This document shows positions 30,930 through 62,500 of a stretch of 64,000 bases of DNA, one piece after another. Both the position numbers and the translations under genes were made by a program. Each line of letters begins with the position of its first letter. Within the stretch, counting starts at the first letter, position 1. This DNA is from Rhizophagus irregularis (taxonomy: Eukaryota > Glomeromycota > Glomeromycetes > Glomerales > Glomeraceae), in assembly GCF_026210795.1 (NCBI RefSeq), contig NC_089433.1, forward strand, positions 2,505,001 through 2,569,000. The letters run 5' to 3'. The notes beneath the pieces are model-generated. The model had not been told where the DNA came from. It worked only from the letters and a program-made list of their open reading frames with translations, and did no database searches.

Positions 30930-30937
30930 TTATACAT

Positions 30938-31770
30938 TAAACATGGGGCCTGAAACCTCTGAGAGGATTTCTGAAAGTTTCGGGTTTTGGAATATACGAA
31001 TCGAAACCTCACCCAAAACCTCACTCAAAACCCTAAACAAGTTCCAAAACCCTAAATAAATCCCGAAACCTGAAACTAATTTCAGTTATCTCGAAACTAA
31101 TCCCAATATCCAGAAACTCGTTGATTGAATAATCACGTGGCAATTTAAATAATTAATAGATTGATATTCAATATATCGTGTTTGATAACTATCTTTACTT
31201 TTTACATTCAAGCCTTTGGCTGTCTCACATTAATTCACCTGATATAGTTTTTTTTTTAATTTTATTAATTTTCATTCTTCTTTTAATATAGATATCACTT
31301 CCCTAGTATGGTTTCTACCCCTTACTATGTTATGGACTAGCAGGCCATGCCTTCTCGTCTTGGGAATAACTGAAAAGGTGGGCGGCTTCTCAAGTGGGAG
31401 TTTCATACAATTATATATTTTAATTAGTATTCATATTTTATTATGTAATGTCTTAAATCTCTTGTATGACAGTCTATTTATAACATAAAAATAAAAAATA
31501 AAAATAAAAATGGTTGGACTTAATTGAGAAGTCTTTTTAATAAAATGTCAGATAGTAATTCAATATTGTTATAATTTTAGTTATTTTAATAAAAATTAAT
31601 TAAGTAAATTAATAGGTTTCGGTTATATTTCGGTATATAAAAGTTTCAGAAATTTCGGGTCAGTTTCAGGTTTCGAGTTTTGGGAAAAAAACATCCATCC
31701 TGAAACTAAGTTTCGGTATATACCGAAACCTAAAGGGTTTCAAAAGGTTTTGGTTTCAGGCCCATGTTTA
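30938..31770. mobile_element. Non-autonomous hAT-like element, 833 bp
   Basis: Ends are TAAACATGGG...CCTGAAACC and its inverse, flanked by a perfect 8-bp duplication TTATACAT (30930-30937 and 31771-31778). An 8-bp duplication is typical of hAT transposons. Left and right arms are rich in GAAACC and GGTTTC words, forming a foldable structure. The middle (about 31290-31425) is a less AT-rich block that could be a further insertion or captured sequence. No transposase. Confidence 0.8.
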
Positions 31771-31902
31771 TTATACATGAAGTTGAAATTAAAGCCCAAA
31801 AGTAGAAATATTTCGACTTGGGAAGGTCAAAAGTCAAAATTAAAGTCGAAATGGTCAAAATTACATCATAGTCATGTGATTTTTATAATTATAATTTAAT
31901 AT

Positions 31903-32263
31903 AAAATTTTAAACGTGAATAACTCTGTCAATATTGATGCTACAGATATGAAATACATATCATTGGAATCCTCTCAATGAGCTGAATCCAACCGCGTAAA
32001 GATCATAAAATCGAATCACTGGATGCGGAGATCGTTAACTTTGAATTTTAAAATTATTGTTTACTATAAAAATTATAAGACTATTTAATACCAAATTTTA
32101 AACGTGAATAACTCCGTCAATATTAATGCTACAGATATGAAATACATATCATTGGAATCCTCTCGATGAGCTGAATCCAACCGCGTAAAGATCATAAAAA
32201 TCGAATCACCGGATGCGGAGATCGTTAACTTTGAATTTTAAAATTATTGTTTACTATAAAACT
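31903..32263. repeat. Tandem duplication, about 189-bp period
   Basis: Two nearly identical copies, starting near 31903 and 32092, share AAACGTGAATAACTC, CTACAGATATGAAATACATA, GAATCCTCTCRATGAGCTGA, CCGCGTAAAGATCATAAA and GGATGCGGAGATCGTTAAC. Their few differences suggest a recent duplication. The GAATCxTCTCAATGAG core resembles modules at 38.9-39.4 and 57.6-58.0 kb. Confidence 0.85.
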
Positions 32264-32638
32264 CTAAAAAAACATAAAGAAAAATGGGCAGTATGTTTTA
32301 ATCAAAATATATTTATGGCAGAAATGTCAATTATATAACGTGCTAAAAGTATGAACTATCTCATGAAAGGATACATTAATGCTACTACTTCCATGTCAAC
32401 ATTTCTCAATGCATTTGAATCTGCATTAGACAACAGACAACAAACAAATGAATTTTCTCAATATAAAGAATGTACCTTAAATCTTATATATAAAATACCC
32501 AGCCTATTTGAAAACAAGCTGCTACTATTCTTACTATTTATGCTTTAAAAAAATTTCAAGAGCAATTATTACAATCTTCTTGCTATAAATGTAAAGAAAT
32601 TCCTCCTGATAGGTAAATAATTCTTTTTTTTTATTATA

Positions 32639-34244
32639 CAGTGGCCATCAAAAATAACGCACCACCCTAATTGCCAATCAAAAATCACGTGCATTATTTT
32701 TTATACTTGATAAAATAAATATAAATTTAACTAAATTAAGAAATATACTCGATAATCTTTTACATCATATCAAATTTGGCTTAATTTTATTGGTAAATTG
32801 TCACGAAGCTACATATTTTATCACTTTTTAGTGGTGCGTTACTTATGACGGTTTATGTCAAAACAAAATAATTATGTTTTTTCAAAGACTTACATAAATA
32901 CTCAAAGAAAGTTTTCATAATGTAAAGTGTTTATTAGTTATTTTAATACTTCTTTTTAATTTTTTTTTACTTCAAATATGTCAAACCGACTAACAATTGA
33001 ACAAAGGGCTCGAGCACTTCAATTATTAGACTTGAGGTTTAGTTTAAGAGAAGTAGCCGCAAAAATTGGTAAAAATGTTCACCATACAAGTATTTTACGA
33101 CTAAAAAAGAAGTATGAAGAGACTAAGAGTATCGAAAACAAACCAAAATCTGGATGTTCACGCAAGTTAACTGACTGTGATGAAAGAATTATAGTTCGAT
33201 GTATAATGACAGATGAGTGTTCCACAGCAGTAAACGTCCAAAAATCCCTAAAAGTTGTTGATAATATTGAAGTAAGTAAAAGCACAGTGCGCAGAGCATT
33301 AAATAGAAATGGATTATTTGCTCGGGTAAAACGTAAGAAGCCTCTATTGTCAAAAACTCACTGTGAAAAATGATTGAAATTTGCGCAAAAGTATAAGTCA
33401 TGGACGGTGAGTGACTGGAATAAAGTTGTGTGGTCTGACGAGTCCAAATTTCAGATTTTTGGATCAGACGGCCATGCTTATTGCTGGAAAAAACCTGAAG
33501 AAGCTCTTACAACTCGACATGTGAAGCCTACAGTTAAGTTTGGTGGGGAAAGTGTCTTTGTATGGAGATGCTTTACCTTTCTTGGAGTGGGATACTTATG
33601 TAAGATTGATGGTGGCCTTGATGCCGAATTATATCGAAGAATTCTTGATGAAGACTTCTTAGAAACATTAAAATATTGTGATTTAAACTGCTCAAATATA
33701 ATTTTTCAACAGAATAATGATCTAAAGCACACAGCAAAACGTACTTTGGAGTGGTTTGAGGTAAATAATATTCAGTTACTCAGTTGGCCATCTGAACACC
33801 TTTGGAATGATGTAGACCGTCGTCTCAGACAGTTAAATGTGGAAATTAGGGGTAACGATGCGCTATGGGAACATATTTCAAAAATATGGAATGAAACATC
33901 ATTAGAGGCATGTACAAAGTTAATAAATACAATGCCAGAGAGAATTAATGATGTTTTAAAAGCTGGAAGAGGGTATACAAGGTGGTAGTTTTGTTTTTAA
34001 AAAGGAATTTTATAATTTATTTTAACATATTTTTTGTTAAATATAAAAAAATAAATAAAATTCAATTTCCGTCAAAAGTAACGCACTGGCAATTTTTTAC
34101 AAATTGTTGTGTAATTTAAAATTCGTCCAATTAAAACACACTAAAATTTATTTGTTTATTGCATCACATGATGAACTAAATATAGAAACTTATTATGATT
34201 TTTGATTGGCAATTAAGGTGGTGCGTTATTTTTGATGGCCACTG
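32639..34244 (+). mobile_element. Tc1/mariner element, 1606 bp
   Basis: It is flanked by TA at 32637-32638 and 34245-34246. The terminal inverted repeats are about 48 bp and almost identical (32639-32686 and 34197-34244), beginning CAGTGGCCATCAAAAATAAC. A second inner pair carrying the GTGCGTTAC word lies at about 32831-32851 and 34069-34091. That is an IR/DR-like double-repeat layout in which the transposase can bind twice per end. The element sits in an intron of the MULE gene. The near-identical ends imply a young insertion. Confidence 0.92.
32978..33988 (+). pseudogene. Tc1-type transposase, one stop and a catalytic deletion
   Basis: The frame starts MSNRLTIEQRARALQLLDLR and encodes a paired helix-turn-helix region (LREVAAKIGKN; VSKSTVRRALNRNGLFARV). 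The DDE/D core follows: VVWSDESKFQIFG (first Asp), FQQNNDLKHTAKRT (second Asp) and EHLWNDVDRRLR (Glu). A TGA at 33371-33373 interrupts the same frame after KTHCEK; CGA or TGG is the likely ancestor. Between LLSWPS and EHLW about eight residues usual in Tc1 transposases (the SPDLNPI block) are missing. The protein is therefore unlikely to be active even with readthrough. The ends could still be mobilised by a relative elsewhere. Confidence 0.9.
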
Positions 34245-34321
34245 TATAAAAATTGGATCTTTTTTTATTTAACAATTATTTTATTATTATAGTGAATTTT
34301 TCATTCAATCTAATATGTAAG

Positions 34322-34942
34322 TAGAGTTCTGAATGGATCAGGTCAGGTCATGTTAATTGATAAACCTGACCTGAAATTTTTTTCAGGTCAGATTAGGTCA
34401 GGTCAGGTTATATCAGATTATTTGTTTGACCTGACCTGAACTGAAACCTGAAAATTTTTGGATTTTTATTAAAATATCAAAAAAAAATGGTGCAAAACAT
34501 TTTTTTTTTTGAAATATTGTGATTCACTTTTTTATATTAAAATCATATAAAAAGATGAATCGCAATATCGCAACTAACTTTTTTTTATATAAAATCAATA
34601 TAAAAAGTGAATTCTGATACCGCAATTCACTTTTTATATATATAATCAATATAAAAAAGTGAATTCTGATACTGTAATTCACTTTTTAAATATAAAATCA
34701 ATATAAAAAAGTGAATACTTATATCGCAACTCACTTTTATTATATAAATCAATATGAAAAGTGAATTATAATACCATAACTCACTTATATAAAATTATAG
34801 TTTCAGGTCAACAGGTCATTCAAGTTATATTTATATTACAACCTGAACTGATACTGAATTGCAATTGCTAAACCTGACCTGATAATAAATTCAGGTCAAC
34901 CTGTCAGGTTACCTGAATTTGGTCAACCTGTTTGGAACTCTA
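34322..34942. mobile_element. Non-autonomous hAT-like element with CTGACCTGA arms and hairpin array
   Basis: Ends are TAGAGTTCTGAATGG and TAGAGTTCCAAACAGG (inverse). The 8-bp duplication TATGTAAG is at 34314-34321; its right copy starts at 34943 and is interrupted by the next element, with its final G at 36758. The arms are CAGGTCAGGTC-type satellite and the centre holds about four or five units of AAAAAGTGAATT...AATTCACTTTTT hairpins (34520-34790). It belongs to the same family as 37352-38277, in opposite orientation. It is inserted at the splice donor side of a MULE intron. Confidence 0.85.
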
Positions 34943-34949
34943 TATGTAA

Positions 34950-36749
34950 TAAGGATGGGTCCGCAAATGATTTTCAAATTCCGCAATATTGCGGATTTTG
35001 AAGTTGAATTGCGGTTAGTAGCCCGTAATTCTGCAATTCAGTTTTGGTGTTTTCTTACATACAAAAAACACCAGAACTAATAGGTTTTTTATACAAAAAT
35101 GCTGGACTTTTTTTAATGGCTACAATTATTTTATAATAAAAACCAGCTATTGGTAAAAGGAACTATTTTGTTTTTTTTCAAAAAGAATATTTTTTAATTT
35201 TTTTTAATAAAAACGCTGGAACTATGGGTTCTGGCGTTTTCTTTTAATTATTTTATATAAAAATGCCGGAACTATAGGTTCCGGCATTTTCTTTTAATTT
35301 ATTTATATAAAACGCTGGAACTATGGGTTCCGGCGTTTTCTTTTGATTTTTTTTATGTAAAAATGCCGGAACTATATAAAACGCCAGAATCTATAGTTCC
35401 GGCGTTTTCTTTTGATTTTTTTTATGTAAAAACGTTGGAACTATAGGTTCCGGCGTTTTCTTTTGATTTTTTTATAAAAACGCTGGAACTAAGGTTCCGG
35501 CGTTTTCTTAAATTTTTTTTAATAAAAACGCCGGAACTAAGCGTTCGGCATTTTCTTTTAATTATTTTATATAAAAACGCAGGAACCTATGAGTTCCGGC
35601 GTTTTCTTTGATTTTTTTATATGAAAAAACGCCGTAGAACAAGGTTCTTTGGCGCTTTTTAATTTATTTATATAAAAACGCCAGAACTATGGGTTCGCAT
35701 TTTCTTTTAATTTTTTATGTAAAAACGCCGGAACTATAGGTTCCGGCGCTTTTTGAATTTTTTTATGTAAAAACGCCGGAACTATAAGTTCCAGCGTTTC
35801 TTTGAATTTTTTTATAAAAACGCCGGAACTATAGGTTCCGGCATTTTCTTTTGAATTTTTTTTATGTAAAAACGCCGGAACTATAGGTTCCGGCGTTTTC
35901 TTTTGAATTTTTTTTATGTAAAAACGCCGGAACTATAGGTTCTGGCGTTTTCTTTTAATTTTTTTATGAAAAACGCCGGAACTAAGGTTCCGGCGTTTTC
36001 TTTTAGTTTTTTTTAATAAAAACGCCGGAACTAAGCGTTCCAGCATTTTCTTTTAATTTTTTTTTAATAAAAACGCCAAAACTAAGCGTTCCAGCGTTTT
36101 CTTTTGATTTTTTTTTAATAAAAATGCCGGAACATGGCGTTCCGGCGTTTTCTTTTAATTTTTTTAATAAAAAACGCCGGAACTAAGTTAAGTTCCGGCG
36201 TTTTCTTTTTTTAATTTTTTTTAATAAAAACGCCGGAACAGGCGTTCCGGCGTTTTCTTTTAATTTTATTATGTAAAAACGCCAGAACTATGAGTTCCAG
36301 CGTTTTCTTTAAATTTTTTTAATAAAAACGCCAGAACTATAGGTTCCGGCGTTTTCTTTAAATTTTTTTTAATTAAAACGCTGGAACTATAAGTTCTGGC
36401 GGTTTCTTTTAATTTTTTTTTATGTAAAAACGCCGGAACTATAGGTTCCGGCGGTTTCTTTTAAATTTTTTTTAATTAAAACGCCAGAACTATAGGTTCC
36501 AGCGTTTTTTTTAATTTTTTTTTATGTAAAATAATTTCTTTTATTATTAATAATAAATAGAAATATTTTTTTTTAGTAGTAATTATATTTTATTAAAAAA
36601 AAGAAAGTTTTTTTTGCGGAATATTTGCGGGATTGCGGATAATTGCGGATTTGCGGATTTGCGGATTTTTAGATTTAAAAATCCGCAATGTTCCGCAATA
36701 CCGTAAATCACAATTATTCCGCAATTACATATTTGCGGCACCATCCTTA
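34950..36749. mobile_element. Non-autonomous hAT-like element carrying a hairpin array, 1800 bp
   Basis: Ends are TAAGGATGGGTCCGCAAAT and, at the right inverted, TAAGGATGGTGCCGCAAAT. A perfect 8-bp duplication ATATGTAA flanks it (34942-34949 and 36750-36757). Inside the ends are TTGCGGAT/ATCCGCAA satellite arms, and between them an array of roughly 26 short palindromic units (35205-36510). It has no ORF. It landed on the target duplication of the preceding element, so it is the later of the two. Confidence 0.88.
35205..36510. repeat. Array of about 26 hairpin units, around 50 bp each
   Basis: Each unit reads AAAACGCCGGAACTATAG followed by its inverse GTTCCGGCGTTTTC, then a T-rich spacer (TTTTAATTTTTTTTATGT-like) of about 15-20 bases. 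The stems are GC-richer than everything around them. Units differ by scattered substitutions, with paired changes in some stems, for example CTGG/CCAG variants. One unit near 35356-35410 is a compound of two. Confidence 0.9.
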
Positions 36750-37351
36750 ATATGTAAGTATAAATTTTCATTAGAATTATTTATAATAAATGTTATTAAT
36801 TTTACTTTCTATTTAATAGATTTAATAGCATAAATCAAAGTCTTTAAATATTTCTTGTTACAAGATTTGGATCTTCAAGTAATAAAAGAGTAGTAGAATA
36901 CAGTTTGAATGATGAAATTTTTACTTGTACATGTGGATATATGGCTTTTTCTGAAATAATTTGCCGTCACATTCTTCGTGTTGCTACACAATTAAACATT
37001 GATTCATTTTCTAAAAAGATGTATCCTTCACGCTGGTATAAGAATCCTAATAAATCTGAAATGATACAAATTTACCAATCATTTTACAAACATAAACCTT
37101 TGCATGATTTGCAAGATCAATTAATAATAGAACAGCCCACAGCTAGAACAGGATTATAAATATAAACTTAATCGTACAATTTGGAAATTACAATGATTTG
37201 TTAATAATGACATAATAAAGATACCACAAAATATAAAGCCAAAAGGTGGCGTACATTCAAATAAAAGGAAAAAATCTGGTATAGAAATTAATTCTCAAAG
37301 AAAAAAATCAAAAAAACTAAAGGTAAAGATTTTAATACATATATTCTTTAT

Positions 37352-38277
37352 TAGAGCTCCGAACAGGTCAGCCAAATTCAGGTAACCTGACCTGACCTGA
37401 CCTGAAATTCAGGCCAGGTATGAAGATTGACCTGACCTGATATACTGTTGACCTGAAACTATTGATTCTACTATATAATAAAAGTGAGTTGCAGTATTGC
37501 GATTCACTTTTTTATAAAGATTCTATATAAAAAAAGTGAGTTGCGGTATTGCGATTCACTTTTTTATATAGATTCTATATAAAAAAAGTGAGTTGCGGTA
37601 TTGCGATTCACTTTTTTATATTGATTTTATATAATAAAAGTGAGTTGCGATATTGCGATTCACTTTTTATATAGATTCTATATAAAAAAAGTGAGTTGTG
37701 GTATTGTGATTCACTTTTTTATATTGATTTTATATAATAAAAGTGAGTTGCGATATTGCGATTCACTTTTTTATATAGATTCTATATAAAAAAAGTGAGT
37801 TGCGGTATTGCGATTCACTTTTTTATATTGATTTTATATAATAAAAGTGAGTTGCGGTATTGCGATTCACTTTTTTATATTAATTCTATATAAAAAAAGT
37901 GAATTGCAGTATTGGGATTCGCTTTTTTATATGATTTTAATATAAAAATGTTGAATCGCAATATTTCGAGAAAAAATGTTGCGAAAACGTTTTTTTCATA
38001 ATATTATATTAAAAAAATGTTTCGTAACGTTTTTTTTTGATATTTCAATAATAACGTTGCAAAAACGTTTTTTTTCATAATATTTTATTAAAAAAAAAAA
38101 GTTTTGTACCGTTTTTTTTCAATACTTTAATAAAAATAGTCCTGAAATTTTTCAGGTTTCAGGTCAGGTCAGGTCAAACAGACAACCTGATATAACCTGA
38201 CCTGACCTGACCTAAAAAAAAATTTCAGGTCAGGTTTATCAATTAACCTGACCTGACCTGATCCATTCAGAACTCTA
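37352..38277. mobile_element. Non-autonomous hAT-like element with hairpin array, 926 bp
   Basis: A perfect 8-bp duplication TTCTTTAT flanks it (37344-37351 and 38278-38285). Ends are TAGAGCTCCGAACAGGTC and TAGAGTTCTGAATGGATC (inverse). CAGGTCAGGTC satellite arms enclose eight or nine units of AAAAGTGAGTTGCGGTATTG with the inverse CGATTCACTTTT (37480-37930). It sits in an intron of the MULE-RTC4 gene and is the sister of 34322-34942. Confidence 0.9.
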
Positions 38278-38731
38278 TTCTTTATTTTCAAAACTATAAA
38301 AAAATAATTTCTTGTTAATAATACATAGGAGAAAGATTCTAATAAAAACAAAAAAAATATTATAGTAAGAAATTCATTATGATAATTTTTTTATCTATTT
38401 CAGATTGTTAATAAAGGAAACTCAAGTAGCAATGATGAAAATATTAACTCTATTACAGTAAATAATTATAATTCCACTTTCTTTTGATTATTTATAAAAA
38501 TCAGTTGGTGTTATAATTTATTTAACAAAACTCAAAATTTTATTATAAAGATACCTGAAATATGTCCTTATTGTGATGAAAGTTACCATCTCCTTTGCCT
38601 AATAAGTTAAAGGATTTGTTTATGAATTTTCAAGGAAAAAGTTTAAAAGCCGTAGAGCAATTTGAATTTTGTCATGCTCATATAGGAGAAATGCAAATCA
38701 TTTCAGATGGTATTAAAAAAGGTTATCCAAC

Positions 38732-39562
38732 TAGAAATGCGATCCAGATGAAATTTTACAATCTGTGATCTTCCTGGATCAATCCGGATTATCATAGGAT
38801 TAAATCTGGATAATCTAAATTAACTATTTTTGGGTAGCTCAGTACTTAACGATCGTATAAAGATGCACTATAACTCATTCAAATCGTTACAATGAGACGA
38901 TTTGAATAAGCTATAATACATCTCTGTACGATCACTGGATGTCGAGATAATTGGCAAAATGTGAAACATCAGCATTTTTATTTTATAATTATGCAAAATT
39001 TTACGTTTTGCCAAATATCTCGGCATCTAGTGATCGTACTGAGATGCACAATAGCTCATTCGAATCGTCTCAATGCAATGATTTGAATGAGCTACTGTGC
39101 ATCCTGTACGATCGTTGGATGCCAAGATATTCAGAAAACTGTCAAAAATCGGTAGTATTATAAATAAAAAATGCCGATTTTTGTATAGGGATGTACTGTA
39201 GTTCATTCGAATCGTTGCATTAAGACGATTTGAATGAGCTATTGTGCATCTCTGTACGATCACTGGATGCTGAGATATTTGGCAAACCGTGAAATTTTGC
39301 ATAATCGTAAAATGAAAATGCTAATGTTTGACATTTTGCCGAATATCTTGGCATCCAGTGATTGTACAGAGATGCACAATAGCTCATTCAAATCGTCTCA
39401 TTATGACGATTCGAATGAGCTATTGTGCATCTCTGTACGATTATTAGATGCTGTTTCAGATTAAAATAGATATCTTTAATCCATCTGAATGCATCCATTA
39501 TTTGTTCGGATCAGATGGATTGGTGGATGATTTGAATTTTCAAATTTTAGATCACATCTCCA
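38732..39562. mobile_element. Non-autonomous hAT-like element with inverted modules, 831 bp
   Basis: A perfect 8-bp duplication TATCCAAC lies at 38724-38731 and 39563-39570, and removing the element restores the RTC4-like reading KKGYPT-VIDF. Ends are imperfect: TAGAAATGCGATCC against TGGAGATGTGATC. The interior has at least four inverted modules of GATGCACAATAGCTCATTCG and its inverse around a GTCTCAATGAGAC-like core, each next to GATCACTGGATGC. No ORF. Confidence 0.82.
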
Positions 39563-39570
39563 TATCCAAC

Positions 39571-44294: not shown

Positions 44295-47200
44295 TTAAAT
44301 GTGAAATCTTCTATTTAACGGTAAAATGGCCAAGTATTCAGTACGTTTGTATTTAAATTTTGCTGGAACAAATCTACCTAATATGTGATGAACCGGAATT
44401 ATACTATCAACTGAAGAATTAAAAAACTCCTTTTTCCAAAGTTCCGGATCATTCGTAAAATCATCAGAATCTTCGCTGGAAAAAAAAAATCTGTCGCAGC
44501 GGGTTTATACCAATTCACAAAAGCCAAATAATGTTCCGTCGGACCATTCGGAAGATGAACTGTATGTTTGAAATAGAATTGTACCTGGCCGGGATATGTG
44601 TCTATATCATTTCTACGTTATTCTATAAAACGTGCTAAAATATAAGAGCTTCTAATATACCTTTTGGATAATATTGACCCAAAATATTCTGCACCGATGC
44701 GCAATCTGCCACATTGTGTGATATTTCCAGTTACAGCAATGTAATTTTCGGTTGATGAAGAAGGATCTAACTGTGGTCGGCTAAAATTATATTCTTCATA
44801 AGCGCGATTGTAGTAATCAACTAGTAAATCCAAAATATCATCCGGTAATATGACATTCAATTTTATCGGACTTAAAAGTTCTCCAGGATATTCCTCCGTT
44901 CCTGTTACCCTGCCAGAAACCAGCTTTTCGGATATGTCTAAAAATGCCTGTAATTCCTCACTTTCGAGAGATTCATTTTCGTTATCATCAGTTGTATTAT
45001 CATTTAAATCAAGTATTTGAAAAATGGCCTGATGATTTAGAGCCAATGTATTGAATCTTCGTTCAATTTGAGAACTCTGCATCATAAATCGCATAATTTC
45101 CAGTTCAATTTTTCGTCTACTATTAGGTAAACTCCCTGTATAATTGTAAAATCGTAAGTAATAATTCTGAATAATTTGAATAATATTATTGTAAATACCA
45201 ACCAAGAATTCCATTCATCCTTTCAAAGAAGAAACACCAAAATGAGTAAAGAGGACCGTAATCTTTACAACATTTGTTTAAGTGTAATGAAAGATGTAAA
45301 TTTGGTGTTATTGAAACTTCTCCGTAATTCGTTTCGATAAGTTTCAAAATTTCAATTAAATGTTCATGTGCGTCATCTAAATTTTTGATTGTAACAATCC
45401 TTCGGACTAATATAGAACAAGCTTGGCTGAAATGTACTAAGATTTTCCGATCTTCTTGGTCCAAAAAATCCCAAAGAACGACTCTGGCATAAATCATGAA
45501 AAAATTTTTCCATTCGTTAGCTGTTAAATTGGAAAATCCTTCCCCAATATCTATTTTATGAGGAATTCGACCGATTTCTGATGGTGGATGAATATTGTTC
45601 ATGTTTTTTTGAATTTTCGTCAAATCATCCATATTTATTTTACCATGTCCTAACCAAAGCCATTTTACGATAAATGATGCAATTCCTATAAATAAATTAT
45701 GCATCGGGTCTACAGGTAAAAATCGTATCGGATCGAAATAAGACAAACGGAGCATTTCTGACCATCTCGCATGATATTGCTTCGCATGTCTTTTTCTAGC
45801 TTCGTTGCTTTTACATTTTCTCCATTCCAAAGCCATTTCTCGATGACTATTCACGTTTTTAGCAACAAACCATTCGTCAATATCATCCATGCCACTAAAA
45901 TTTCTATTTCTTGCAACCTTTAAGCATCTGTGACAGCTTACATTGGCTGAATAATGGCCACATAATTTTCTAGCAGCTGGTATATCGCAGCAACAAGCAA
46001 TTACTGCGCATTTTATCAATCTTCCGGATAAATGTTCAGAAGTTCTGTCTAATCCCACTCCTTCCCAAAAAGTTTGAAATTGATCAACAATTGGCGCCAA
46101 GTAATGATTTATCTGATGTAGGCTTGGTTCATTAGGGCCTGCATTAATCCTAAAATGAGCATATTTTCGGGTTTAAAGCGCAATTCTCTTGGGAGATTGC
46201 AAATAGCTCCATATATAGCACCAGAACTATGAATTGTCCTTTCAAATGGCTGAAACCAATCGACGTTAATCATAATACCCAAATGATCATCCGCATGTTC
46301 TTTATTAAAAAATCTTTGTTCGTCAGATTCATCATCCACTATTATTCCACTATTTGAGAAATTCTTCCAAATTTCACCATCATATACATCACATAAGACT
46401 CGGTCGTTGACGCTTCTATCGGCCCATAATTTAAGATTTTTTTCAAAGTTTGGCCTTTGATACATTTGTAAAAGTTGCTCTTTTATACTGGGCATCGGAT
46501 AAATTAATAATGGCGCATTAACGACTTTACCATCGTCTAGTTCTTTTTGTTCTGATAATGGAGCATTGCATTGTCGAAGTGAATGATGATTTGGAAATTG
46601 TACATGACCACATTTTTTTATTGCTTTGTGTTGTTGGATTGTGTGTTGTTTAACATCATCTATATTATGTAATTTGTGACATGAAGGACATACGGAAAAT
46701 TTGATAAATTGATGCTTCAATCCTAATTTCTTTCTTGCAGTATACAACGAAGTAGGAAAATCTTTAAAACGATCGTAATTAAAATTTGTTAAAATATGTT
46801 TGATGAATTTAATTAATGTATCGATTGCGGTATCTGCTAGTCGAAACCTAGTTTGATACCTCAAAACAAACACAATTATCCAATCTTCAATATTTTGCAG
46901 ATTTTCATTAATATTGTTTGGAAAATCATAATTCGGTGGAGAGTAATCTTCAAAAATGTTGGTTTCTTCGCCATTATCATCCCCATCATCCCCATCATCC
47001 CCATCATCGTTATCATCCCCATCATCCCATCATCGTTATCATCTCCATCATCCCCATCATCGTTATCATCGCTATCATCCCCATCATCGTTATCATCGCT
47101 ATCATCCCCATCATCGCTATCGCCATAATTATCAGTTTCTTCGTTACTGTCATTGTTATCATCACTGTTATTTATATTTTGCATTTGAGTGTCACGTTCC

Positions 47201-51132: not shown

Positions 51133-53147
51133 GTAAGTAATTATTAATTTATAATAATTAATTTCTTTAAAAAAAACTAATAATAATAATTTATTTTAAG
51201 GATTATATCAAATATTTACGAAAGTATCGTGAAATAATGCATAGTAAAATTAATTTTCAATCTTTAGAAGATCTACGTATCAATACTTTAAAACAAATTC
51301 GTGATTGGTTTATATGTGGTGATAAACAAAAGACAGAATCTAAAGAGTGGATTTCATCACAATGCCAATTTGATTTGGTTTTATCTATCAATGGTTTTAT
51401 TGGAATGCTTACATATATTTTAAATAAATATCCAAGTGCAATGATTCAAGCAAAAAGGATTTCACAAGATATGCTTGAGGGACTTTTTGGTACAATCCGA
51501 GAACTTGGTGGAGACTCTTTCACCCAAACACTTAAATCTTATGGACATGCCTTAAACAAATATCAAATTACAATGTTAGTTTCGTCAGAAATAAAGAGTG
51601 TTAATTATGGCAAAACAGATGGTACTGGAACTGGTATTACTACTTTAGTAAGAAGGTATGCATATGTTATAAATTATATTATTATTACATCTTTATAAAT
51701 TAAAATATTTTATTTACAATTAGAGATTATCGAAAAGATAAACAAAAAACAACAAATAATGAAGAAAATAATTACATTTATCAAAAACATTTGGTTCGTT
51801 TGGCACAAATATCATCTCTTTCTCACAATGTGTTTAAAAATCTTCTTACAGATGATTTAATTATGGGGAAAATCAAGTTTCCATTAGGACCATACTATAA
51901 AAATGTTGATCAGGAAAATATTAGAATTTTTCGCCTACAGAGTGAACGCCACCAACTTATAGAAACCATCCTTTATCAGGATTCTATTGATAAATTACTA
52001 CAAAAGTGGCAAGATATTATTAAAAATATCGCTTGTAAAGCAATTCTTAAAAAAACAGGAATTCAATGGTTAGCTACTTGGAGCTCTTACCTTGAAAATT
52101 GTCTAAATAATTTTAAATGCTCAGGAGTCTGGTATCAAGATTTTCTTATTGCATCCAATTTAAATGATTCTTCAACTAAAAGGCTCGTTGCATACTTGCT
52201 TTTACAAGAGGTTATTAAAATTACCTTTAGTGAAAAAAAGTATCAAATATCTCACAAACTCATTTAGCAGCAGACAATAATTTAAAACCAGAAAAAATTA
52301 TTGTCTTGGAATCATCTGAGGCGTCAAAATTTTCCTACATCATTGGGTGGATTGTTTATAAGTTAACAAAGAATGACAATATAACAAAATCGCGTCCTGA
52401 ATTTGAAGCAATTAAAACTCACCTTATGACTCTAAATTCAGAACAAGTTGTTTATGAACAGGATGTTCGATCTCAAACAACGAATGTGATTCCCGGTCTG
52501 AAGTTTTTAGAATTTATGTATAAAATAGAATCATTAGTGTTATTATTATTTGAAAAGCATACAGAATTTAGACCCAATATTCTTCAATATATACACAATA
52601 GCTTATTATGTAACTTACCATTGTTAGAAAATTTTAACACACTCATCAATATCTCTACTCAGATGCTTTCCACGTGTGACTCTATAAATATAACAAAATA
52701 CGAGTTAAAAGATGATGCTAGAGAATTTCTTTATGAAAGAATTATTATTATTTATATGAAAAGTAGACAAAAATCCTGGCAAAAATTCAATGATCTCATC
52801 CCCGAAAAAGGAACCTCAAGCCTTAGGGAAAATCTTAAAGCTATGCGTAATGATACTGAAAATAACATACCTACTTTAATAAAAAAGTCCAACTTACCAA
52901 AAGATCCTATGCTTGGTTTGGTGCAACTTCAAATCTGGGCACAGTTGGATGGTGCTGAAGGATTATTCTCAAAATTGTTTCTAGTGAGTGAGTTACAATG
53001 GTTACTTTGGGCATTTGGAGATAATATAAATAACAAAAGAAAAAAGAGTTTAATACCTTTAATTTTAGAACACCTGAAAAAGGGTACTTCTTTTTCCAAA
53101 GAAGCTATATCAAAGGGTCAAATATTTACAGTTTGAATTATAGAATA

Positions 53148-55348
53148 CAGTCGCCACTGGTTATAACGAACCTGTTTGTACCGAAAACTGTTTGTACTGA
53201 ACCAAGTCCCACAGAACCGATTTTTCTATAATTAATCACACTGGATGTAACAAAATCACATAATAAATTACCATATATCGCATCTGAACTTATTGTAACC
53301 AGTCCAAGTATATCAATTACATATTTAGTATAACAAACTGTCACGTGACTTTAATTAATAATATAAAAGTATGAACGCGTTATCGTTAGTCGCGTTGTAC
53401 GGTTTTACCGGAAAAAAATTTTTCCGTTTAGTTTTGGATAAATTTTCAAAAATACCGATAATGTCAACAAAAAGAAAGAGAGTTAACCTTTCCGCTGGTC
53501 AAAAGCGCAAGATTTGTGAAATGAAGGAAAGAGATCCGCACATTCAAAATGTTGAACTTGTGCAAAAATATAACGTTGGAAAGTCAACAATTACTGACAT
53601 TTTGAAAGAGAGTGAACGTTGGCTTACAATTACAGAAAGTCAAGAGAATGTTAAAAAATTTCGTGAACCAAAGTGGCCTCAACTTGAAGACGCGCTTGGC
53701 CTTTGGGTTGATAATGCACTTAATACTAAACAAGATATTGATGGCAATATCTTAAAAATGAAGGCAAGTTATTTTGCTGAACAGTTTTCTATAGAAGATT
53801 TTCATCATTCAGAGGGTTGGTTAGGTGGCTTTAAAAAACGGCATAGTTTGTGTCAGTTTAAAAAGCAGGGTGAGGCTGAAAGTGCACCTTCTGCTGAATC
53901 AATAGAAAGAGATCGTCTTGCTCTTCAGCAGTTCCTTACAACTTATAATCCTGAAGACATTTGGAATGGCGATGAAACTGGCCTATTCTGGAAGATAGAA
54001 CCTTCTAGAGTTTTGGCACGCAATTCTTTATCAGGCCATAAAAAAGAAAAATCCCGAGTTACAATATTTTGTGCAACAAATGCAACTGGTAGTGAAAAAA
54101 TGACATTAACCTTTATTCATAAATACAAAACACCTCGTGTCATGAAAAATATTAATCATAAAAATCTTCCAGTTCATTATTTTTGGAATAAAAAAGCATG
54201 GATGCAAGTTAGTATTTTCAATGATATTCTCCTTAAACTCAATGAAATAATGAGAAGAAAAAATTGAAAAATTGTTTTTTTAGTTGATAACGCTCCAGTA
54301 CATATTATTTTAGATGAAACTCAAGAAAAGTTGGATAGTATAGATGTAAAATTCCTTCCATCAAACATTACTACTAAACTTCAACCTTGTGATGCAGGAA
54401 TAATTCATTCATTCAAGTGCTATTACAAACGTCTCTTTCTTCAAAATCGGATTAATGCATATGATGATGTGCAGGATGGTATTGTGGAAGAACTTGCAGA
54501 TTATACTATTTATGATGCTCTCCAGAATGCGGCTGAAGCATGGTCAATGGTAACTTCTCAAACTATCTCAAACTGTTGGAAAAAAACAGGTATCCTCCCA
54601 CAAAGTGATGAATTTGAAGAATTTTCTGATGATAATGATTCGGTACTTTCTGATAGGTATAAATTTTTTTAATATATTTGAATTTTAAATATTTTTAATT
54701 AACTCTTAAAATCAATTCTTTTTTTAGTTTTGATATAGAAATCAATGAACTTGAGGTGTTGATTTCTCAGTTTTCAAAAAGTGATCTTAATGCATATGAA
54801 TATCTTCATATTGAGGACGAGATACCAGAGGGTGGGCTTACTGATCATGAAATAGTTGATACTATTCGAAATGCAAATAGGGAAGAGGAAAATGTGGTGG
54901 ATGAGATTGAATTAACGCATATAATGGAGAAAATAAATCTGACAGAGGTAGAAAAGGCTATAGATAAAACCATAAGATTTTTATATAAACAAGGACCAGA
55001 ATTCGAGGAAGTAAATGAAGAGTTGAAAATTTTAAGGAGATTGCATAAAAAAGTGAAGGTATTGATTGTAAAAAATTTAAAACAGGTTGATCTTCATTAC
55101 TTTCGATACGATAATGTTATTTGAATAAACGTTAAAGTTAATATTGTCGCACAAAATTAAATAAAATTGTATTACTGTAGTACATTATAAAATTAAAATA
55201 ATTATAAAATATCATGATCTATAATTTTATTGGATAAAATTTATATACCGAACAGTTCGGTATATAACATAAATATTACATATCAAATTCATTATATACT
55301 GAACCAAATCTCTTGGAACGGAAGGTTCGTTATAGCCAGTGGCGACTG
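53148..55348 (+). mobile_element. Tigger/pogo DNA transposon, 2201 bp
   Basis: Ends are CAGTCGCCACTGGTTATAAC and its inverse, about 25 bp with a single internal difference, flanked by TA (53146-53147 and 55349-55350). It lies 12 bases downstream of the P-like transposase stop codon, inside the P-like element. A nearly intact two-exon transposase fills it. Confidence 0.92.
53461..55124 (+). pseudogene. Tigger transposase, intact except one stop
   Basis: Exons are 53461-54656 and 54728-55124; I prefer the ATG at 53461 (MSTKRKRVNLSAGQKRKICE) because it begins at the family's basic start, although the frame is open back to 53371. Domains in order: a psq-type helix-turn-helix (VELVQKYNVGKSTITDILKE), a CENP-B-like region (HHSEGWLGGFKKRHSLCQFK) and a DDE core. 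The core has IWNGDETGLFWK (first Asp), VFLVDNAPVHI (second) and TTKLQPCDAGIIHSFK leading to the third. Exon 2 is an acidic, coiled-coil-like tail. A single TGA at 54265-54267 replaces what should be CGA (RRKN-R-KIVFLVDN). Apart from this the gene looks complete, so this copy has moved recently. Confidence 0.9.
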
Positions 55349-55368
55349 TAGTTGTTAATGAAGTCTAT

Positions 55369-55592
55369 TAGTGCTTCGATCCGGATGAAAACTTGAATAT
55401 TTTCATGTGACGATTATGGCTGAGAAAGATTATGAATTTCAGATTTAAACAGACTATAATTTAAACCAACATTAAAGTATTATTATCCCAAAAATTTATA
55501 CTAATTCTGGCCAAACTCATAGTGCCAGCGAAATTTAATGAAATTCAATCTGGATGAAAATCCGGATAAAACCGCTACGGATCGAAGCACTA
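55369..55592. mobile_element. Small hAT-like MITE, 224 bp
   Basis: A perfect 8-bp duplication AAGTCTAT flanks it (55361-55368 and 55593-55600). Both ends read TAGTGCTTCGATCCG inward. ATCCGGAT words recur inside. It lies in the 3' part of the P-like element. Confidence 0.88.
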
Positions 55593-55965
55593 AAGTCTAT
55601 TATCCAAATATTTGGTATATAAATAAAAAATAACATTAAAACGGTGCTTAAAGTAAATTGCTACAATAAATTAGCTTATTCCAAGGAAAAAAATAACAAT
55701 TTACAAAAGCTATAGTGACTCAATTGAAATAAAACAACTTTTCCTATATAGACCTAACTTGAGTAATCTTAGTTTTTAAGATCGGCTGCTTTTCTATGAA
55801 TGCGCGTCGAAAAAAAATTAAAAAAAAGTAAAAATTTGCGCAATTTTATAGTAGATTTCGATTGTGTAACCAATTTATGGTGGCGACAGTTCTGGTTATT
55901 ATTGATCAGTCTGTGTAACCTATGAGTTGGCCTCCCCGTTTATTTATCTAACCCCTAGGTTATGC

Positions 55966-56037
55966 AATATAAATTTATTTATACAGGGTAGTCTAAACAT
56001 TACAGTTATACATAAAAACAATTATTATATAATATAG
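55966..56037. other. Short spacer outside the P-like element
   Basis: The stretch between the right target duplication of the P-like element and the next repeat has no recognised content. Confidence 0.4.
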
Positions 56038-56873
56038 AGCATAGCGGACATCTTTACTTTATCACAATTTTATCAATCATTTGTCAATTATTTATTCAAT
56101 TTTATCACTTCGTTATAATTACTTTGGTTGAAAATCCTACATAATAATAATTTTACAGACAATTTAACATTCATTTAAATTTACTGCATATTAAATTTAT
56201 CAAAAAAAATTCTTTAAACAGTTAATAAAGTTTTACAAATTTTGTCTATATATGTATTTTAATAATATTCATAAACATTTGCTCAATGATAACTTTTTGA
56301 TTACCTAAAATTCTACATGATTATTTTGGCTATTGATTCTTGAATACCTAAATAATATATTTTAAAAATTTCAAGTTTCGCTCATAAATCTGTGGCTTCG
56401 CCCGAAGCTCTAAAGTCAAATTAGCAGATAATCAGCAAATATAGGCAAACATCAAATTATTGAAAATTTCAGTTTAAGGTTAATTTTAACAATATAATTT
56501 TTTTTATTTTTCATAAATTATACTACTAAAAAGACATTAGATGACACAAAGTGGTAAAAATGGTTTTCATGGTCTGGCCGGGTCAGTTTTGTTAAGTCTT
56601 AAAAAAAAATTTTTTATATTATTACTATGCCGGGTAAGAATTTTTTAAAAATTGAAAAAAAATTTCGCATATAAAATTTTTGAAAAAAAAATTAAAAGCC
56701 AGGTTGCCAGATTATTGATGAAATTTTTATATTATGAAAACCATAAAATCAAGTTTGTATGGCCTTAGTATAGTTTGGCTAAGAATTTTATGGCTTTAAC
56801 CATAGCTTCAAAATTAATGTGACATGATATCGATGAATGATCGGCAAAGTGATAAAAGCATGTTCGCTATGTT
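56038..56873. mobile_element. Candidate non-autonomous element with 9-bp duplication, 836 bp
   Basis: Left end AGCATAGCGGACAT and right end (inverse) AACATAGCGAACATG continue as imperfect inverted repeats through TTTATCAC. They are flanked by ATAATATAG (56029-56037) and ATAGTATAG (56874-56882), one mismatch apart. A 9-bp duplication would suit a Mutator-like element, but the ends are too short to assign. No transposase. The interior holds a GGTCTGGCCGGGTCAG-type block near 56570. Confidence 0.5.
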
Positions 56874-56882
56874 ATAGTATAG

Positions 56883-57480
56883 ATGATATATATATATAAA
56901 TAATAAATAATCAAGTTTCTTTTATAATTAATTTAAAATTAATCTGGTTATTATGGTAACTATGGTGCTATTGTAATTGCAAAAACTTTAAGAAAGCTAT
57001 TTATTGATACTAAAATTTTAATAAAATCTCTAACAATACCACAAATACCAATGAAATTATATCTGCCGATTTGTGAAATTTGCTGATCATTAGTTATATG
57101 GCGCAGTACCAATTAAAATCAATCAAAACCCATTTTTATGTAAGAAAAAATGTCAAAAATATATAAAAAAACTTTTAAAACTCTTCCAAAATATTTATCT
57201 CTTTAACTCGAAACTAGTAGAAGGAGTTTCTAGAAAAAAAAGGAAAAAAATATTATAAAGTTAGTTTATTAAAAAAAAACAAAAGAAAAACTTTACAAAA
57301 TTCAGAATATTTAATATGTAAAGTCAAAAACAATATTCAAAATCCACTTTTTTTCCTTAAGTAAACTTGCAAAGCAAATAAAAATACACTTATATTATGA
57401 TTTTAAAGTTTCTATTAATCTTCTTTATAAAAAATTATTCTAATTAAAATTACACCGAATCACGTGATTTATATAGTTGT
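56883..57480. other. AT-rich stretch, nothing recognised
   Basis: No ORF or repeat structure of note is visible beyond A- and T-runs. Confidence 0.5.
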
Positions 57481-57489
57481 TTCTAAAAT

Positions 57490-58170
57490 TCAATTGGCAA
57501 ATCCAAAATCCGAAATTACGAAATCATAATTAATTACATAATTACGAAATTAATTACGTATTCCAAAATTCCAAAATTTGCATAATAGTGCGAAATTGCA
57601 AATATCTCGGGATCTAGTTATCAGATTTCAATGATCTTACTACCATTCGATTCGTCTCATCAAGACGAATCTAATAATATGTGTTTTATTTCTATAGCAC
57701 TGATATTGATGGAGTAAAATTACTATAAACATTTAATGAATTTTGGTGTCAGAGCATGATCTAGTGATTAGGTTTGAATGAATTTACTACCATTCGATTC
57801 GTCATGATGAGACGATTCTAATGGCGGTAAGATCATCTTTCTAGCATTGAAATTGACAGAGCTATTATGCTATAAATATTTAAAAGTTATTGGTATTGAA
57901 GCGCGATTTAGTGATTGGATTTATATGATCTTACTACTGTTAGAATCGCCTTATCGAGACGAATCAAATGGTAGTAAGATCATCCAAAACGGATTACTGG
58001 GTGCCAAGTTATTATTTATTAAAGTTTATATATATAAATCGGCCAAAATTAAGGCTAATTCTGGCCAAATATTTTCGTAATACAAAATTAATTATGGAAT
58101 TACGGAATATGGAGTTTTTCTAATGAATTACTTAATAATTACAGAATTACGTAATTACGTATTTCAGGAC
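57490..58170. repeat. Palindromic repeat cluster with ACGTAATTACGT-like ends
   Basis: Both outer parts are rich in AATTACGTAATT words in inverted arrangement. Between them are three modules of ACTACCATTCGATTCGTCTC followed by its inverse GAGACGAATC and ATGGTAGTAAGATC. It looks like a non-autonomous element, but its exact ends and a target duplication were not found. Confidence 0.55.
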
Positions 58171-59508
58171 CCCGGAAAATACTTATCAGTTAGGGGAAAT
58201 CCGACACGCAAATCAATTTTATAATTGATTAAATTTTGTGTAACCATAATCAAAAATTCACTCCTAAGCCAATCATCAAAAATTTCAACACATCGTACTA
58301 TATAAATATATAAACCTTGATAGACCATCATGTGTTCTATCGATTTTTATCGTCATTTTCTTATTTCAACAACATACTTCTCTTTTTATATTTTACAGAA
58401 CTTTTGTTTTAAAAACAAGCTTTTTCAAGATCCAAGTTGAAATAACAAGAAGTAAGTGATTTTGACGGTAGAGTTATATGTAATTTTATGAGAAGAAAAG
58501 GTTTTTCTAAGCTTGTTATGGTGGTTGTCCAGGCAGTTATTGAGTAAAAAGCAAATAATAAAAAAAAAATAGTAATTTTCGTTATAAAAAAGACTATTTA
58601 GCAACTTATTTCGGTTCTTTTTCAAGTGCAACAAGTTCTATATTCTAATATCGTTCCTTTTCATACATATTTTATGTTTTGATGTCTTCTTTCCAGACGG
58701 GATAATAAGGATAGTAAGTTCTTTTTTTACACTTTTCTTTCTTTTTTTGCTTTATTTTTTAAAAAATTTCTCACTATTTTTTTTTACCTTTTTTTTTATT
58801 TTTATTTTATTTTTTTTCTAAAAAAACTTTCTAATTCTTTTTTTTTTAGATTTCTCCTGATTATGATGGCTTTAGTATAAAATATTTAAAAAAGTAAGTT
58901 GTATGACGCGTTATAGACAAGATAGATCCCTTTTTTTGCTTTTTTATTTAACTTTCATTCTTTAAAAATTTTCTTTCTTTTTTTTCTTTTTAGTTTTTTT
59001 TATTTTGATGACTTTAATCAAGAAAATTGTCTTGTAGTGCTTGGCTTTTTCTAGGCAGGTATGTCTTTTTTTTTTAATTACTTTTTCTCCAATTTTTTTT
59101 TCGTTAGCGTTGATTTTTTATTTTAATTTTTTTTTCCATTAACATTAATTTTTTTTTGTTTTTATCTTCTTAGATGTCTTATAATTTTAAGTTTCTTTAA
59201 GTATGGTTAGGAGTTATTTTCAGACGAGCAGTAATCTTCAACTCTTTCTTTTGTGATTGTGGCGAATTTTACTTAATTATATTTTTATGGTTTAGTAGTA
59301 GCAAGGTGTTCTTACTAGCCGTTAGTTTTTTCATTTAAGATATGTATATTTTAAAAAAATTAATAAATAATATAAATAATTTTTTAATATTACGTTCAAG
59401 TTTTTTTTTTGTGCAAATGAAAAAATAATTTTATTAAATATTAAGCATACATAATACTCAGCATGATGCTGAATCAGATGTAATCTATGTACCTATATTC
59501 AAGTATTA
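58171..59508. other. Pyrimidine-rich non-coding stretch, possibly an intron-rich transcript
   Basis: There is no protein-coding signal. From about 58700 to 59060, T-rich tracts ending in TAG or CAG alternate with short GC-richer islands ending in GTAAGT (for example 58708-58715 and 58892-58897). Two islands contain TGATG-like words (near 58865 and 59007). This resembles a host transcript of intron-encoded small RNAs, but the evidence is thin. Confidence 0.3.
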
Positions 59509-62500
59509 TTATTTTATATTTTCGCTTTTATTAATTATCCTATTCCTTTTCACTTCCACTTCCTCTATCTTTACCTCTTCCTCTTCTTTTGCCTCTACCT
59601 CTTCCTCTATCTCTTCCTCGTCCTCTTCCTCTACCTTTACCTCTTTTATTTTCTTTTTCTTTTCTTTTTCTTCTCTTTCTTCTTCCTTTTTTTCCTTTTT
59701 CATTCTAGCAATTTCAGCAACTGTAATTCGGTAGAGCTCCGAACGAGTCAAGTCGAGTCGAGTTATATGTAAACTCGATTCGACTTGAGTTAAATCGAGT
59801 CAAGTCGAGTCGAGTTAAAATTATAAAAATATAAACTCGACTCAATTCGAGTCGAGTTGGCCCGTCAAACCGAATCGAGTCAAGTCGAATTAAATCACGT
59901 GATTTTATTCGGCTATGCCGATCATTTTTTTTTGGCGATAGCCGTTCCACAAATTTCCATTTTTGTGATTTTCAAAAAAATTTCGTCTCAGATTTTGTGT
60001 AACATAATTTTCAAAAAAGGAAATTCCATAAATTTGGCCAGAATTATGTTTAATTCGGCTTAACTCGACTCGACTCGATTTTATTAAATTATTAACTCTA
60101 TTCAAATCGATTCGATTTGATTATAATTTTCAACTCGACTCGACTCGACTCGACTAACTCGCGAGTCAACTCGACTCATTTCGGAGCACTATAATTCGGT
60201 TTATATTTCTTGCTCTTCTTCCAACAGTTGTATAATCTTCTGTTAAAAGAATTTCTTGGTCAATTATTGATTGTAATCTTTTGATACCAATATCATATAC
60301 AGTAACTAATTGATTGATTTCTTCTTGATTTAAATTTTTACAGAACTCAAATATTGGATGATTAAAAGGATCTAATGATTCAAAAACATCAATTAATAAA
60401 TGTGCAAGTTCCCAAACTTTATTTTTTCGAGATTGAACATTACGTTGTTGAGAACTTTTAACATTATCACCAATATAATCACAAAGCAGCATGTCAGTTC
60501 GATCCTTTTCTAATTGTGTAGCTCTAATTCTTAACTTTAATTCTTCTTTATCTGTTGAAATTCGTGTTATATTTTGTTTTACAAATTTGACACCAAATGT
60601 TTCTAAAGCCTCATCATAGGCAAAAAAATGCCCAGGATTTGTTAAATTTACAGGCGGTGCTGTGCGAAGCATTGCACGAAGTTGAGGATTATTTTCTACA
60701 CAGTAAAGGTGATAGGTTACAGATCTGGCATAATTTGACTTGCCAGCAATAGGAAACAATGGTGAAAAAGCTTTTAAACTTTCATGCTGTAAGTCAAATA
60801 CACCCTAACGAATTCCAAACCAATGTGCTCGCCAATAACTAGCCCATTGAAAATATAAGTACCAAACTTTAATAATGTTATTTTCTTTTAAAATATTATT
60901 TAATGTTTCTTTTTTTCTTTTTACATATAAATTAATTGCAATACCAACTGAAACCCAAATCAGTTCTAATACTCTTGAAGTTGCTCTAAAATCTACACAT
61001 TTTTCTAATTTATCCAAAAATTGCACACCCAATATTCCTGCCATATTAAATATTTCATACCCCGAAAAAATTGTGATTAATGTAGACATCATATCCTTAT
61101 TTGTATGCCATTGTCCAAGAATCATTTTTGTTTTTTCATTTTTTTTACAATAACTAATACTTCTTCTAAAAATTGCTTCATCTGCAACAACATTAATATA
61201 TTCTGAATCAATTTCATTTTGATACATTTTTAAACATTCATGTACAGCAAGATCATTTGATGGTGGATCACCGGCATCAAGAATAATAATATTAGGAGAG
61301 GGAAAATCACAACCAATTTTATAATATATCATAATCTGATTACGTATATCATATCCATCAAAATTTGTCTGATATGTAAAAGTATTTTCATCGAATGCAA
61401 GTAATTTTTCAAAAACTGAATTAAAAATATTTAATATTTGTTCAGAATAAGAATTTTGTCCAAAAAGTAATGGTTGTTGATTTTGTGCTCTTTCTTGTAA
61501 TTCAAGAGTATTAAGTGATTCAGGCATTTGAAATTGAAATAACATACGCAGAATAGCATGTGAATGTCCTCTAGTTGCATCAAATATATTTTCATAACCA
61601 AATGTAGATTTCTTAAAATCCACATTATCTATTATACCAAGATTCCAAATATTTTCATTATAATGAATCCGGTCTGTTGGATTTGCTAATAATGCACGAA
61701 TTTTCTCCAAATTACGCTCATGTCTTAAAGTATGACTAGTAATATTAACTATATTTAAAATTTCTTGTAAAGATGATAGAAGTTTTGGTTTACGACAAAG
61801 ACTTGCCATTGTTCAAGGTAACCAGATTTTCCATCCTTTAAATGCAATATTTAAAATTATTGAAACAAAAAAGGTTATCTGTTTAGTAATTTTTTCATAA
61901 TTTAATGGTTTAGGTTGTTGTTTATAATATTTTTTTTGTCGATCTAATTTTCTTTTTTTTGTCTCATATAAAGTTGTTAAAAGACCATCATAAAATTGCA
62001 CTAAACATAGAGGAAATGTTGCACGATATTCTTCTAAAGAAGCAGGTGCTTCAAGTGACTTTTTGTGTGCTTTTAATTTATGCTTTGCAAGTATTGTTGA
62101 ATTTGCCAATACCTTTCCAAATTCAAAGAAATGTTTTGGTGTAAGATTTTTAGGATTAAGTTTTTTATGTGTATTATAATCAAATTTTACTAAAGCAAAA
62201 ATAACAAGTATTATAAATAAAGAAGGTACTGATATTGATGAAAAAGACTCGGAAGATGATAGTTCAAATGTAATGATAGATTTTTCTTGATTAATAGTAC
62301 ATAAAATAGGAACTAATTGTACTAAAACTTTTTTTTGCCAAACTAATTTAACTGAAAAAGCTACATTAAGAATTCAGTATCCAATTGCTTCTAATGCTTT
62401 TATTGTATCATTATTGTGATGTGACATATTGTCACAATTTGGATCATTCTTTACACCTTTTCCAATATGTTGATAAGTATGCCCGCCCTTATTTTCATAA

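Follow-up and report, generated by a model that had tools for sequence, protein, structure and literature searches.

Seven elements in one window

The window analysed here is a 64,000-nucleotide stretch of the Rhizophagus irregularis genome (contig NC_089433.1, here C5, positions 2505001-2569000), and the genome searched comprises 146.7 Mb in 32 contigs. Seven elements in it very probably represent six families of non-autonomous hAT DNA transposons, that is, miniature inverted-repeat transposable elements (MITEs). An earlier note, made from the letters of the window, had delimited these seven by 8-bp target-site duplications (TSDs), six of them perfect and the imperfect one split by a later insertion, and this can be read directly from the sequence.

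The leftmost element, 30938-31770 (833 bp; 30930-31778 with TSDs), gives its name to the 30938 family, has the tips TAAACATGGGGCCTGAAACC (left) and TAAACATGGGCCTGAAACC (right) and is flanked on both sides by TTATACAT (8/8). Family B is present twice, at 34322-34942 (621 bp; 34314-34949 with TSDs; tips TAGAGTTCTGAA left and TAGAGTTCCAAA right), with ACCTG subterminal arrays and an inner 52-bp hairpin array, and at 37352-38277 (926 bp; 37344-38285 with TSDs; tips TAGAGCTCCGAA left and TAGAGTTCTGAA right; TSD TTCTTTAT, 8/8). The 34950 family is represented by 34950-36749 (1800 bp; 34942-36757 with TSDs), with tips TAAGGATGGGTCCGCAA on the left and TAAGGATGGTGCCGCAA on the right and the TSD ATATGTAA on both sides (8/8). 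The 38732 family, at 38732-39562 (831 bp; 38724-39570 with TSDs; TSD TATCCAAC, 8/8), has degraded tips here and TAGAGATGCRATCCG in other copies. Family A lies at 55369-55592 (224 bp; 55361-55600 with TSDs; tips TAGTGCTTCGATCCG; TSD AAGTCTAT, 8/8) and family C at 59732-60191 (460 bp; 59724-60199 with TSDs; tips TAGAGCTCCGAA left and TAGTGCTCCGAA right; TSD TAATTCGG, 8/8), the latter with ACTCG subterminal arrays.

The TSD of 34322-34942 reads TATGTAAG on the left, while on the right TATGTAA is followed by the start of 34950-36749; beyond that element come ATATGTAA and then the G missing from the right TSD. Because the right TSD of 34322-34942 is interrupted by an element with a TSD of its own, 34950-36749 must have inserted later, inside that TSD. 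As a separate observation, a minus-strand frame (60166-60759) with a weak DUF6589 match (E 0.0032, below cut-off) has the family C element at its end and is perhaps an interrupted gene.

Recurrence and insertion signatures across the genome

All six families recur in the genome, and further copies with matching ends and 8-bp duplications, as implied by the earlier note, were found. The family A tip pattern TAGTGCTTCGATCC has 196 genome matches, TAGAGYTCCGAANRGGTYR has 251, TAGAGCTCCGAACGAGTC has 20 and TAAGGATGGTGCCGCAA, with at most one mismatch, has 72, against 0 for the reversed form of each. We fetched 88 loci (L001-L088), which include the window's own A, B and C copies: the 8 best matches to B, the 30 best to C, the 30 best to the 224-bp A element, and 20 A-tip pairs hand-picked, longer ones mostly, from the first 100 of the 196 places. 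Matched ends of the form TAG...CTA were found in 75 of the 88, and among these two-tipped loci the TSD was perfect in 57 and at least 7/8 in 65. By group, perfect TSDs were read in 3/7 B, 13/19 C, 24/29 A elements of 224 bp and 17/20 other A elements. The 30938 family has seven further copies (90-95% identity over most or all of the element). For this family and the 38732 family, flanks of four copies each were used to read TSDs, giving 8/8 in three and 7/8 in the fourth for 30938, and 8/8 in all four for 38732.

The genome is AT-rich and repetitive, and one of nine control stretches folds strongly too (see below), which could suggest that AT-rich repeats mimic TSDs by chance or through misassembly. 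Random ends drawn in L001-L068 gave an 8/8 TSD in 14 of 80,201 trials (a rate of 1.75e-4, about 2 in 10,000) as opposed to 57/75 at real tips, and the reversed patterns gave no matches. The counts thus refute an origin of this signal in chance or assembly, to which we attach next to no credence.

Empty sites were identified as paralogous target copies in the same genome, compared with the joined flanks of an element. The joined flanks of one family C copy (L026, C27:121783-122247) match window positions 57680-57920, a paralogous empty site where the junction is gap-free and the 8 bp occur once. For another family C copy (L017), the joined flanks align to L034, inside an open hAT-like frame, again without a gap at the junction and with one target copy. 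The flanks of a 6.3-kb element on C2, described below, are unbroken in L095 (27/27 bases) and inside the window's own 37352 element (37405-37431, minus strand, 26/27). These paralogous empty sites, two of them within the window, show that the 8-bp repeats are true duplications, as the earlier note had held. Three further loci (L011, L063 and L065) had small gaps at the junction and were left out of the clean empty sites.

Around the first of these sites, window 57600-57990 holds more short palindromic repeats around GATTCGTCTCATCAAGACGAATC, outside the seven elements and, by eye, like the palindromes of 38732-39562. Sequence related to this stretch is what L026 inserted into, and it also has matches in L025, L012 and L102.

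Interior sequences and folding

The interiors had been described as unrelated in sequence and alike in design, with arms and tandem short palindromes, and this was confirmed only in part. Over their longer matching stretches, the elements at 34322 and 37352 are 76-83% alike; they also have a 52-bp hairpin unit in common and form one family with one hairpin array. The 34950 element contains about 23-26 copies of a different hairpin unit of 50-51 bp. Long tandem arrays were detected by Tandem Repeats Finder in these three elements only. The 38732 element consists of nested inverted repeats with arms of up to 265 nt (86%), 30938 and 59732 have only short repeats of about two copies (one, weak, in 59732), and no tandem repeat was found in 55369. 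We also considered whether lengths between paired family B terminal inverted repeats (TIRs) step by the 52-bp unit, and found no support for this: for 24 lengths the resultant at 50 bp was 0.39, which does not reach the 95% null value of 0.49.

The proposal that one end type carries many fillers was borne out for TAGTGCTTCGATCC ends. With ends trimmed beforehand, and by single linkage requiring at least half of one interior to be covered at 70% identity, 21 elements with A-type TIRs, 20 of them from the hand-picked and mostly longer pairs, fell into 7 interior classes, although L079 still matches L069 over 25%.

Folding was scored with RNA parameters and 25 shuffles per sequence. The seven elements gave z values of -5.0 to -40.0 (for 34950, from its first 901 bp only), scores to which the inverted ends alone contribute, as compared with -3.2 to +2.6 in eight of nine control stretches of the window and -10.5 in the ninth. 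Such strong folding, the arrays or palindromes in 34322, 34950, 37352 and 38732, and interiors that vary while ends stay constant might be expected of foldback or satellite units spreading by their own secondary structure, with hAT-like tips that are incidental. Against this, many sites show exact element ends and 8-bp TSDs, and the same is true of family C and the 224-bp family A elements, which lack a long tandem array; moreover, a hAT-encoding element has its ends in common with 30938 (see below). We therefore regard spread by secondary structure as highly improbable.

Terminal repeat arrays

For the GACCTGACCTGA and CGAGTC arms, subterminal repeats are a better reading than interior filler. 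Counted on both strands in the 200 bp at each end, ACCTGA occurs 10+7 and 8+13 times in the two B elements and ACTCGA 10+8 times in C. ATTTGA occurs 20 and 14 times in the 200-bp ends of a hAT element at L091 (see below). The commonest spacing is 5 bp in seven of the eight ends of B, C and L091, and is tied in the eighth. Two A elements carry ATCCGG (13+15 and 11+12) at wider spacing, and 34950 has subterminal TTGCGGA repeats, with a motif count of 4+10. The family arrays ACCTGA, ACTCGA, ATTTGA and ACCGA differ, and the first three share a loose A-YYY-GA form.

Since subterminal repeats of hAT elements are bound by the N-terminal domain of the transposase, according to three studies (PMC10368747; PMC3260210; PMC8097297), the arms are most likely docking arrays, that is, putative sites for a BED finger.

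Related elements that encode transposase

The earlier note had placed the driver of the elements elsewhere and proposed a search for an autonomous hAT with matching ends. Besides full copies, a search with 30938-31770 returned sites that match it at its two ends alone, with about 3 kb in between. One of them, C6:2457578-2460580 (3,003 bp), has the tips TAAACATGGGGCCCGAAACC and TAAACATGGGGCACGAAACC, summarised as TAAACATGGGGC[C/A]CGAAACC, and the TSD GTACACAC (8/8). Terminal stretches of about 180 bp and 220 bp are common to it and 30938-31770 (81% and 79% identical), and the search reported no match for the part in between. Its interior (L138) contains, on one strand and in pieces, DUF659 (E 4.2e-18) and the hAT dimer domain (E 5.4e-05, over cut-off), together with a zf-BED match that falls below the Pfam cut-off (E 0.0043). 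In a separate locus, a stretch related to this C6 transposase (L066, 630-2964) has a 224-bp family A copy inside it (1501-1724).

Genome hits to the hAT dimer domain (PF05699) comprise 150 scored out of 835 candidates. Two of these, on C2, have a B-type tip just downstream. The 672 bases read there contain a second right end within the B end, TAGTGTTTGGATCCG in reverse, followed by TTCATACC. Taken as a TSD, TTCATACC predicts a left end TTCATACCTAGTG, and this 13-mer is found once in the genome, at C2:4893622, 6.3 kb away and in the right direction, where the bases behind it continue as a matching tip, TAGTGTTTGGATCC. The reversed 13-mer has three matches, so the single match says little in itself and it is the position that counts. 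The resulting A-like element of 6,296 bp has related TAGTG tips, encloses both dimer hits by coordinates, and is nested in C2:4888360-4900029, which has B tips and a perfect TSD, ATTATAAA. B tips also delimit C9:3897422-3901564 (4,143 bp; TSD ACAATGGC).

A further hAT element, L091:1019-5551, has the same end design with TAGGG tips (TAGGGATCTGCAA and TAGGGTTCCGCAA) and zf-BED (E 2.1e-09) and dimer (E 8e-26) matches, and for its dimer region solved structures of the Hermes transposase are matches (E about 5e-12). Near three hAT genes (C27:822.6k, C3:5799.7k and C31:110k) there are copies of type B or C, and the idea that these belong to the hATs was rejected. The B copies in L089 and L090 stand apart as elements of their own, each with its two tips outside the reading frames, while in L091 the hAT differs in its tips and stops short of the C-type pieces.

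We also inspected the 3' flanks of 20 of the 150 dimer hits, picked mostly for distinct scores and longer frames. None has an exact A, B or C tip as its 3' end. With up to two mismatches, TAGAGGTCTGCAT occurs in L106 at 579 bases and TAGAGATTCTAAA in L103 at 536, and the L095 flank holds a separate B copy. Array-bearing 3' ends at a TAGNG- or TAGTA-type tip, picked by eye, were seen in three of the 20, namely L105 (TAGGGATGCCAAC), L108 (TAGAGGTTGGAACC) and L109 (TAGTACTCGACCCG), the 3' end of the L109 hAT being A-like. On C1-C9 (44 of the 150 hits and 100 of the 196 places) no top dimer hit lay beside a place with A-type TIRs, the nearest pair being 15.2 kb apart.

As for the window, the absence of a hAT transposase was confirmed as far as these searches reach. 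None of the 150 PF05699 hits scored out of 835 candidates lies in it, and eight fragments taken from the C6 and L091 transposases, run with phmmer against its six frames, gave no core or dimer match, although a distant hAT could escape such a search. The one relevant signal is a weak BED-finger-like match at 61994-62176 (plus strand; E 0.0032, 13.8 bits), outside the elements. Within seven fetched A elements the longest stop-free stretch is 127 aa. Eight-bp TSDs, copies, empty sites and the lack of a transposase within the elements sustain the view of them as hAT-like, non-autonomous and mobile. The notion of a driver elsewhere is supported for 30938 by the C6 copy with its hAT frames, and also by the A-like tips around the dimer hits.

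Duplications of 8 bp are not exclusive to hAT elements, and the seven might be MITEs of another superfamily with TSDs of this length, such as P or a KDZ/Zisupton type. The window does contain a TNP-like RNase H C-terminal match (51237-51695, E 0.0019) and a DUF4218 match (45189-46100, E 0.0023), both below cut-off. Elsewhere, however, hAT domains are carried or enclosed by elements that share these ends or have close variants of them, and in L091 a hAT gene lies between ends of this design, so that we consider membership of P or KDZ very improbable, if slightly less so than spread by secondary structure.

hAT elements have short TIRs with a TAGNG/YARNG tip consensus and a TSD base preference of nTnnnnAn. 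The TAGNG tip is present in A, B, C and the four 38732 copies looked at, and 34950 has TAAGG. Several observations weigh against a hAT assignment for all six families. The 30938 tip, TAAAC, departs from the theme. The TSD preference is weak, with nTnnnnAn in 15 of 64 distinct TSDs; 31 of the 64 have T at position 2, where the composition of the flanks would predict about 23. The TSD falls short of 7/8 in 10 of the 75 two-tipped loci. Among three pairs of 34950-type ends the TSDs are 8/8, 7/8 and 3/8, the last from a 4.7-kb pair (C6 2942273-2946973) that was rejected as one element. The 30938 and 38732 elements are sparse in subterminal motifs. Dense 6-mers (at least 7 in 160 bp) occur in 8 of the 20 hAT 3' flanks, one owing to an inserted B copy, but also in 11 of 53 ordinary 1.2-kb window stretches, six of the 11 inside elements, which makes array density by itself a modest sign. 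On the transposase side, the frames of the C6 partner are fragmented, by introns or decay; the TSD of L091 (TTCTTTGA) is not independent, its ends having been chosen partly by it; and transposase frames in an element with matching ends were read for 30938 but not for B, C or 34950, the reading of C9:3897422-3901564 and of the C2 elements having covered their ends.

Proposed mode of mobilisation and known parallels

In the mechanism that we propose for these hAT MITEs, a full-length relative elsewhere in the genome would make the transposase, whose N-terminal BED zinc finger would bind the family-specific arrays of short subterminal repeats. The transposase would then pair both tips (TAGNG in most families), cut the element out and insert it with an 8-bp staggered cut, so that the MITEs would be mobilised in trans. 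Tips and subterminal repeats would suffice, and if only these are needed, any sequence between them would travel as carried filler. In 34322, 34950 and 37352 this filler would be a tandem hairpin array and in 38732 a set of nested palindromes, with other sequence in the remaining elements.

The earlier note knew of no described family with this design, but a parallel exists in maize, where Ds2 and Ds-like elements have their tips and subterminal hexamers in common and enclose unrelated filler (PMC3260210). Subterminal repeats as BED-finger sites are likewise established in hAT elements (PMC10368747). The likeness to maize Ac/Ds (Ds1, Ds2 and Ds-like) extends to short shared tips, 8-bp TSDs, repeated subterminal hexamers, which are transposase-bound in maize, and unrelated filler as in Ds2 and Ds-l4, and non-autonomous copies are far commoner there, with 3 Ac-like elements of 903 (PMC3260210). 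The 30938 element and its C6 relative share ends and not the middle, as do Ds2 and Ac. Unlike in maize, the tips and hexamers differ, the filler consists of hairpin arrays or nested palindromes in four of the seven, and several end families with different subterminal repeats stand side by side in 64 kb. Hermes resembles our elements in its zf-BED and hAT dimer architecture and in subterminal repeats as BED sites, here putative, whereas its short sites (AAGT/AAGC) are interspersed in its ends (PMC10368747). Here, B, C and L091 often have tandem runs with a 5-bp period (ACCTG, ACTCG, ATTTG), and spacing is wider in A.

Galileo and foldback elements have long repeat-bearing ends and non-autonomous copies. 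Like the families described here, they are DNA transposons of diverse structure; however, Galileo belongs to the P superfamily (PMC4168063), whereas the tips here are short and the transposases found are hAT.

These are, then, new hAT MITE families of a known kind, one of them with a transposase-bearing relative. No description of these families was found in the open literature, as judged by titles and the beginnings of abstracts, and the terms MITE, TIR and non-autonomous are absent from PMC8647823. About two thirds of transposable elements in arbuscular mycorrhizal genomes were unclassified before the curation in PMC11075540. For R. irregularis, that work assigned to MITEs those sequences of 50 bp-1 kb that bear TIRs and lack transposase domains; some of the present elements may therefore already be in that library.

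The main interest lies in neighbouring families with different subterminal arrays; the hairpin arrays are an unusual cargo. One tentative interpretation, which we put forward as a possibility with the odds against it, is that related hAT families have radiated in this genome, keeping the outer tip TAGNGNTCYG while the short-period array diverged in each family and came to serve as the address for a diverging BED finger, and that hairpin arrays spread as cargo since the ends tolerate any filler. If each array does match its own BED finger, the genome would offer many finger-site pairs for the study of DNA choice by BED domains, domesticated BED proteins included. The hairpin-array fillers represent satellite-like DNA apparently spread by a cut-and-paste transposase, and the end patterns can be used for direct search of arbuscular mycorrhizal genomes.

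Further features of the window

Transposons of other types are present as well. A Tc1/mariner-type element lies at 32639-34244 between TA dinucleotides, with inverted ends CAGTGGCCATCAAAAATAACGCACCACC (by eye), and its transposase frame has one stop at 33371-33373 and an HTH_Tnp_Tc3_2 match (E 7.4e-13). Pieces of a Pogo/Tigger-type transposase occupy 53371-55124, where the frame 53371-54264 matches DDE_1 (3.6e-14), HTH_Tnp_Tc5 (1.8e-10) and CENP-B_N, the rest being in further frames. Adjoining the first of the seven elements, 31890-32260 consists, by eye, of two near-identical copies of about 180 bp (TTTAAACGTGAATAACTC...), and sequence related to this repeat flanks L065 and is also found within L104.

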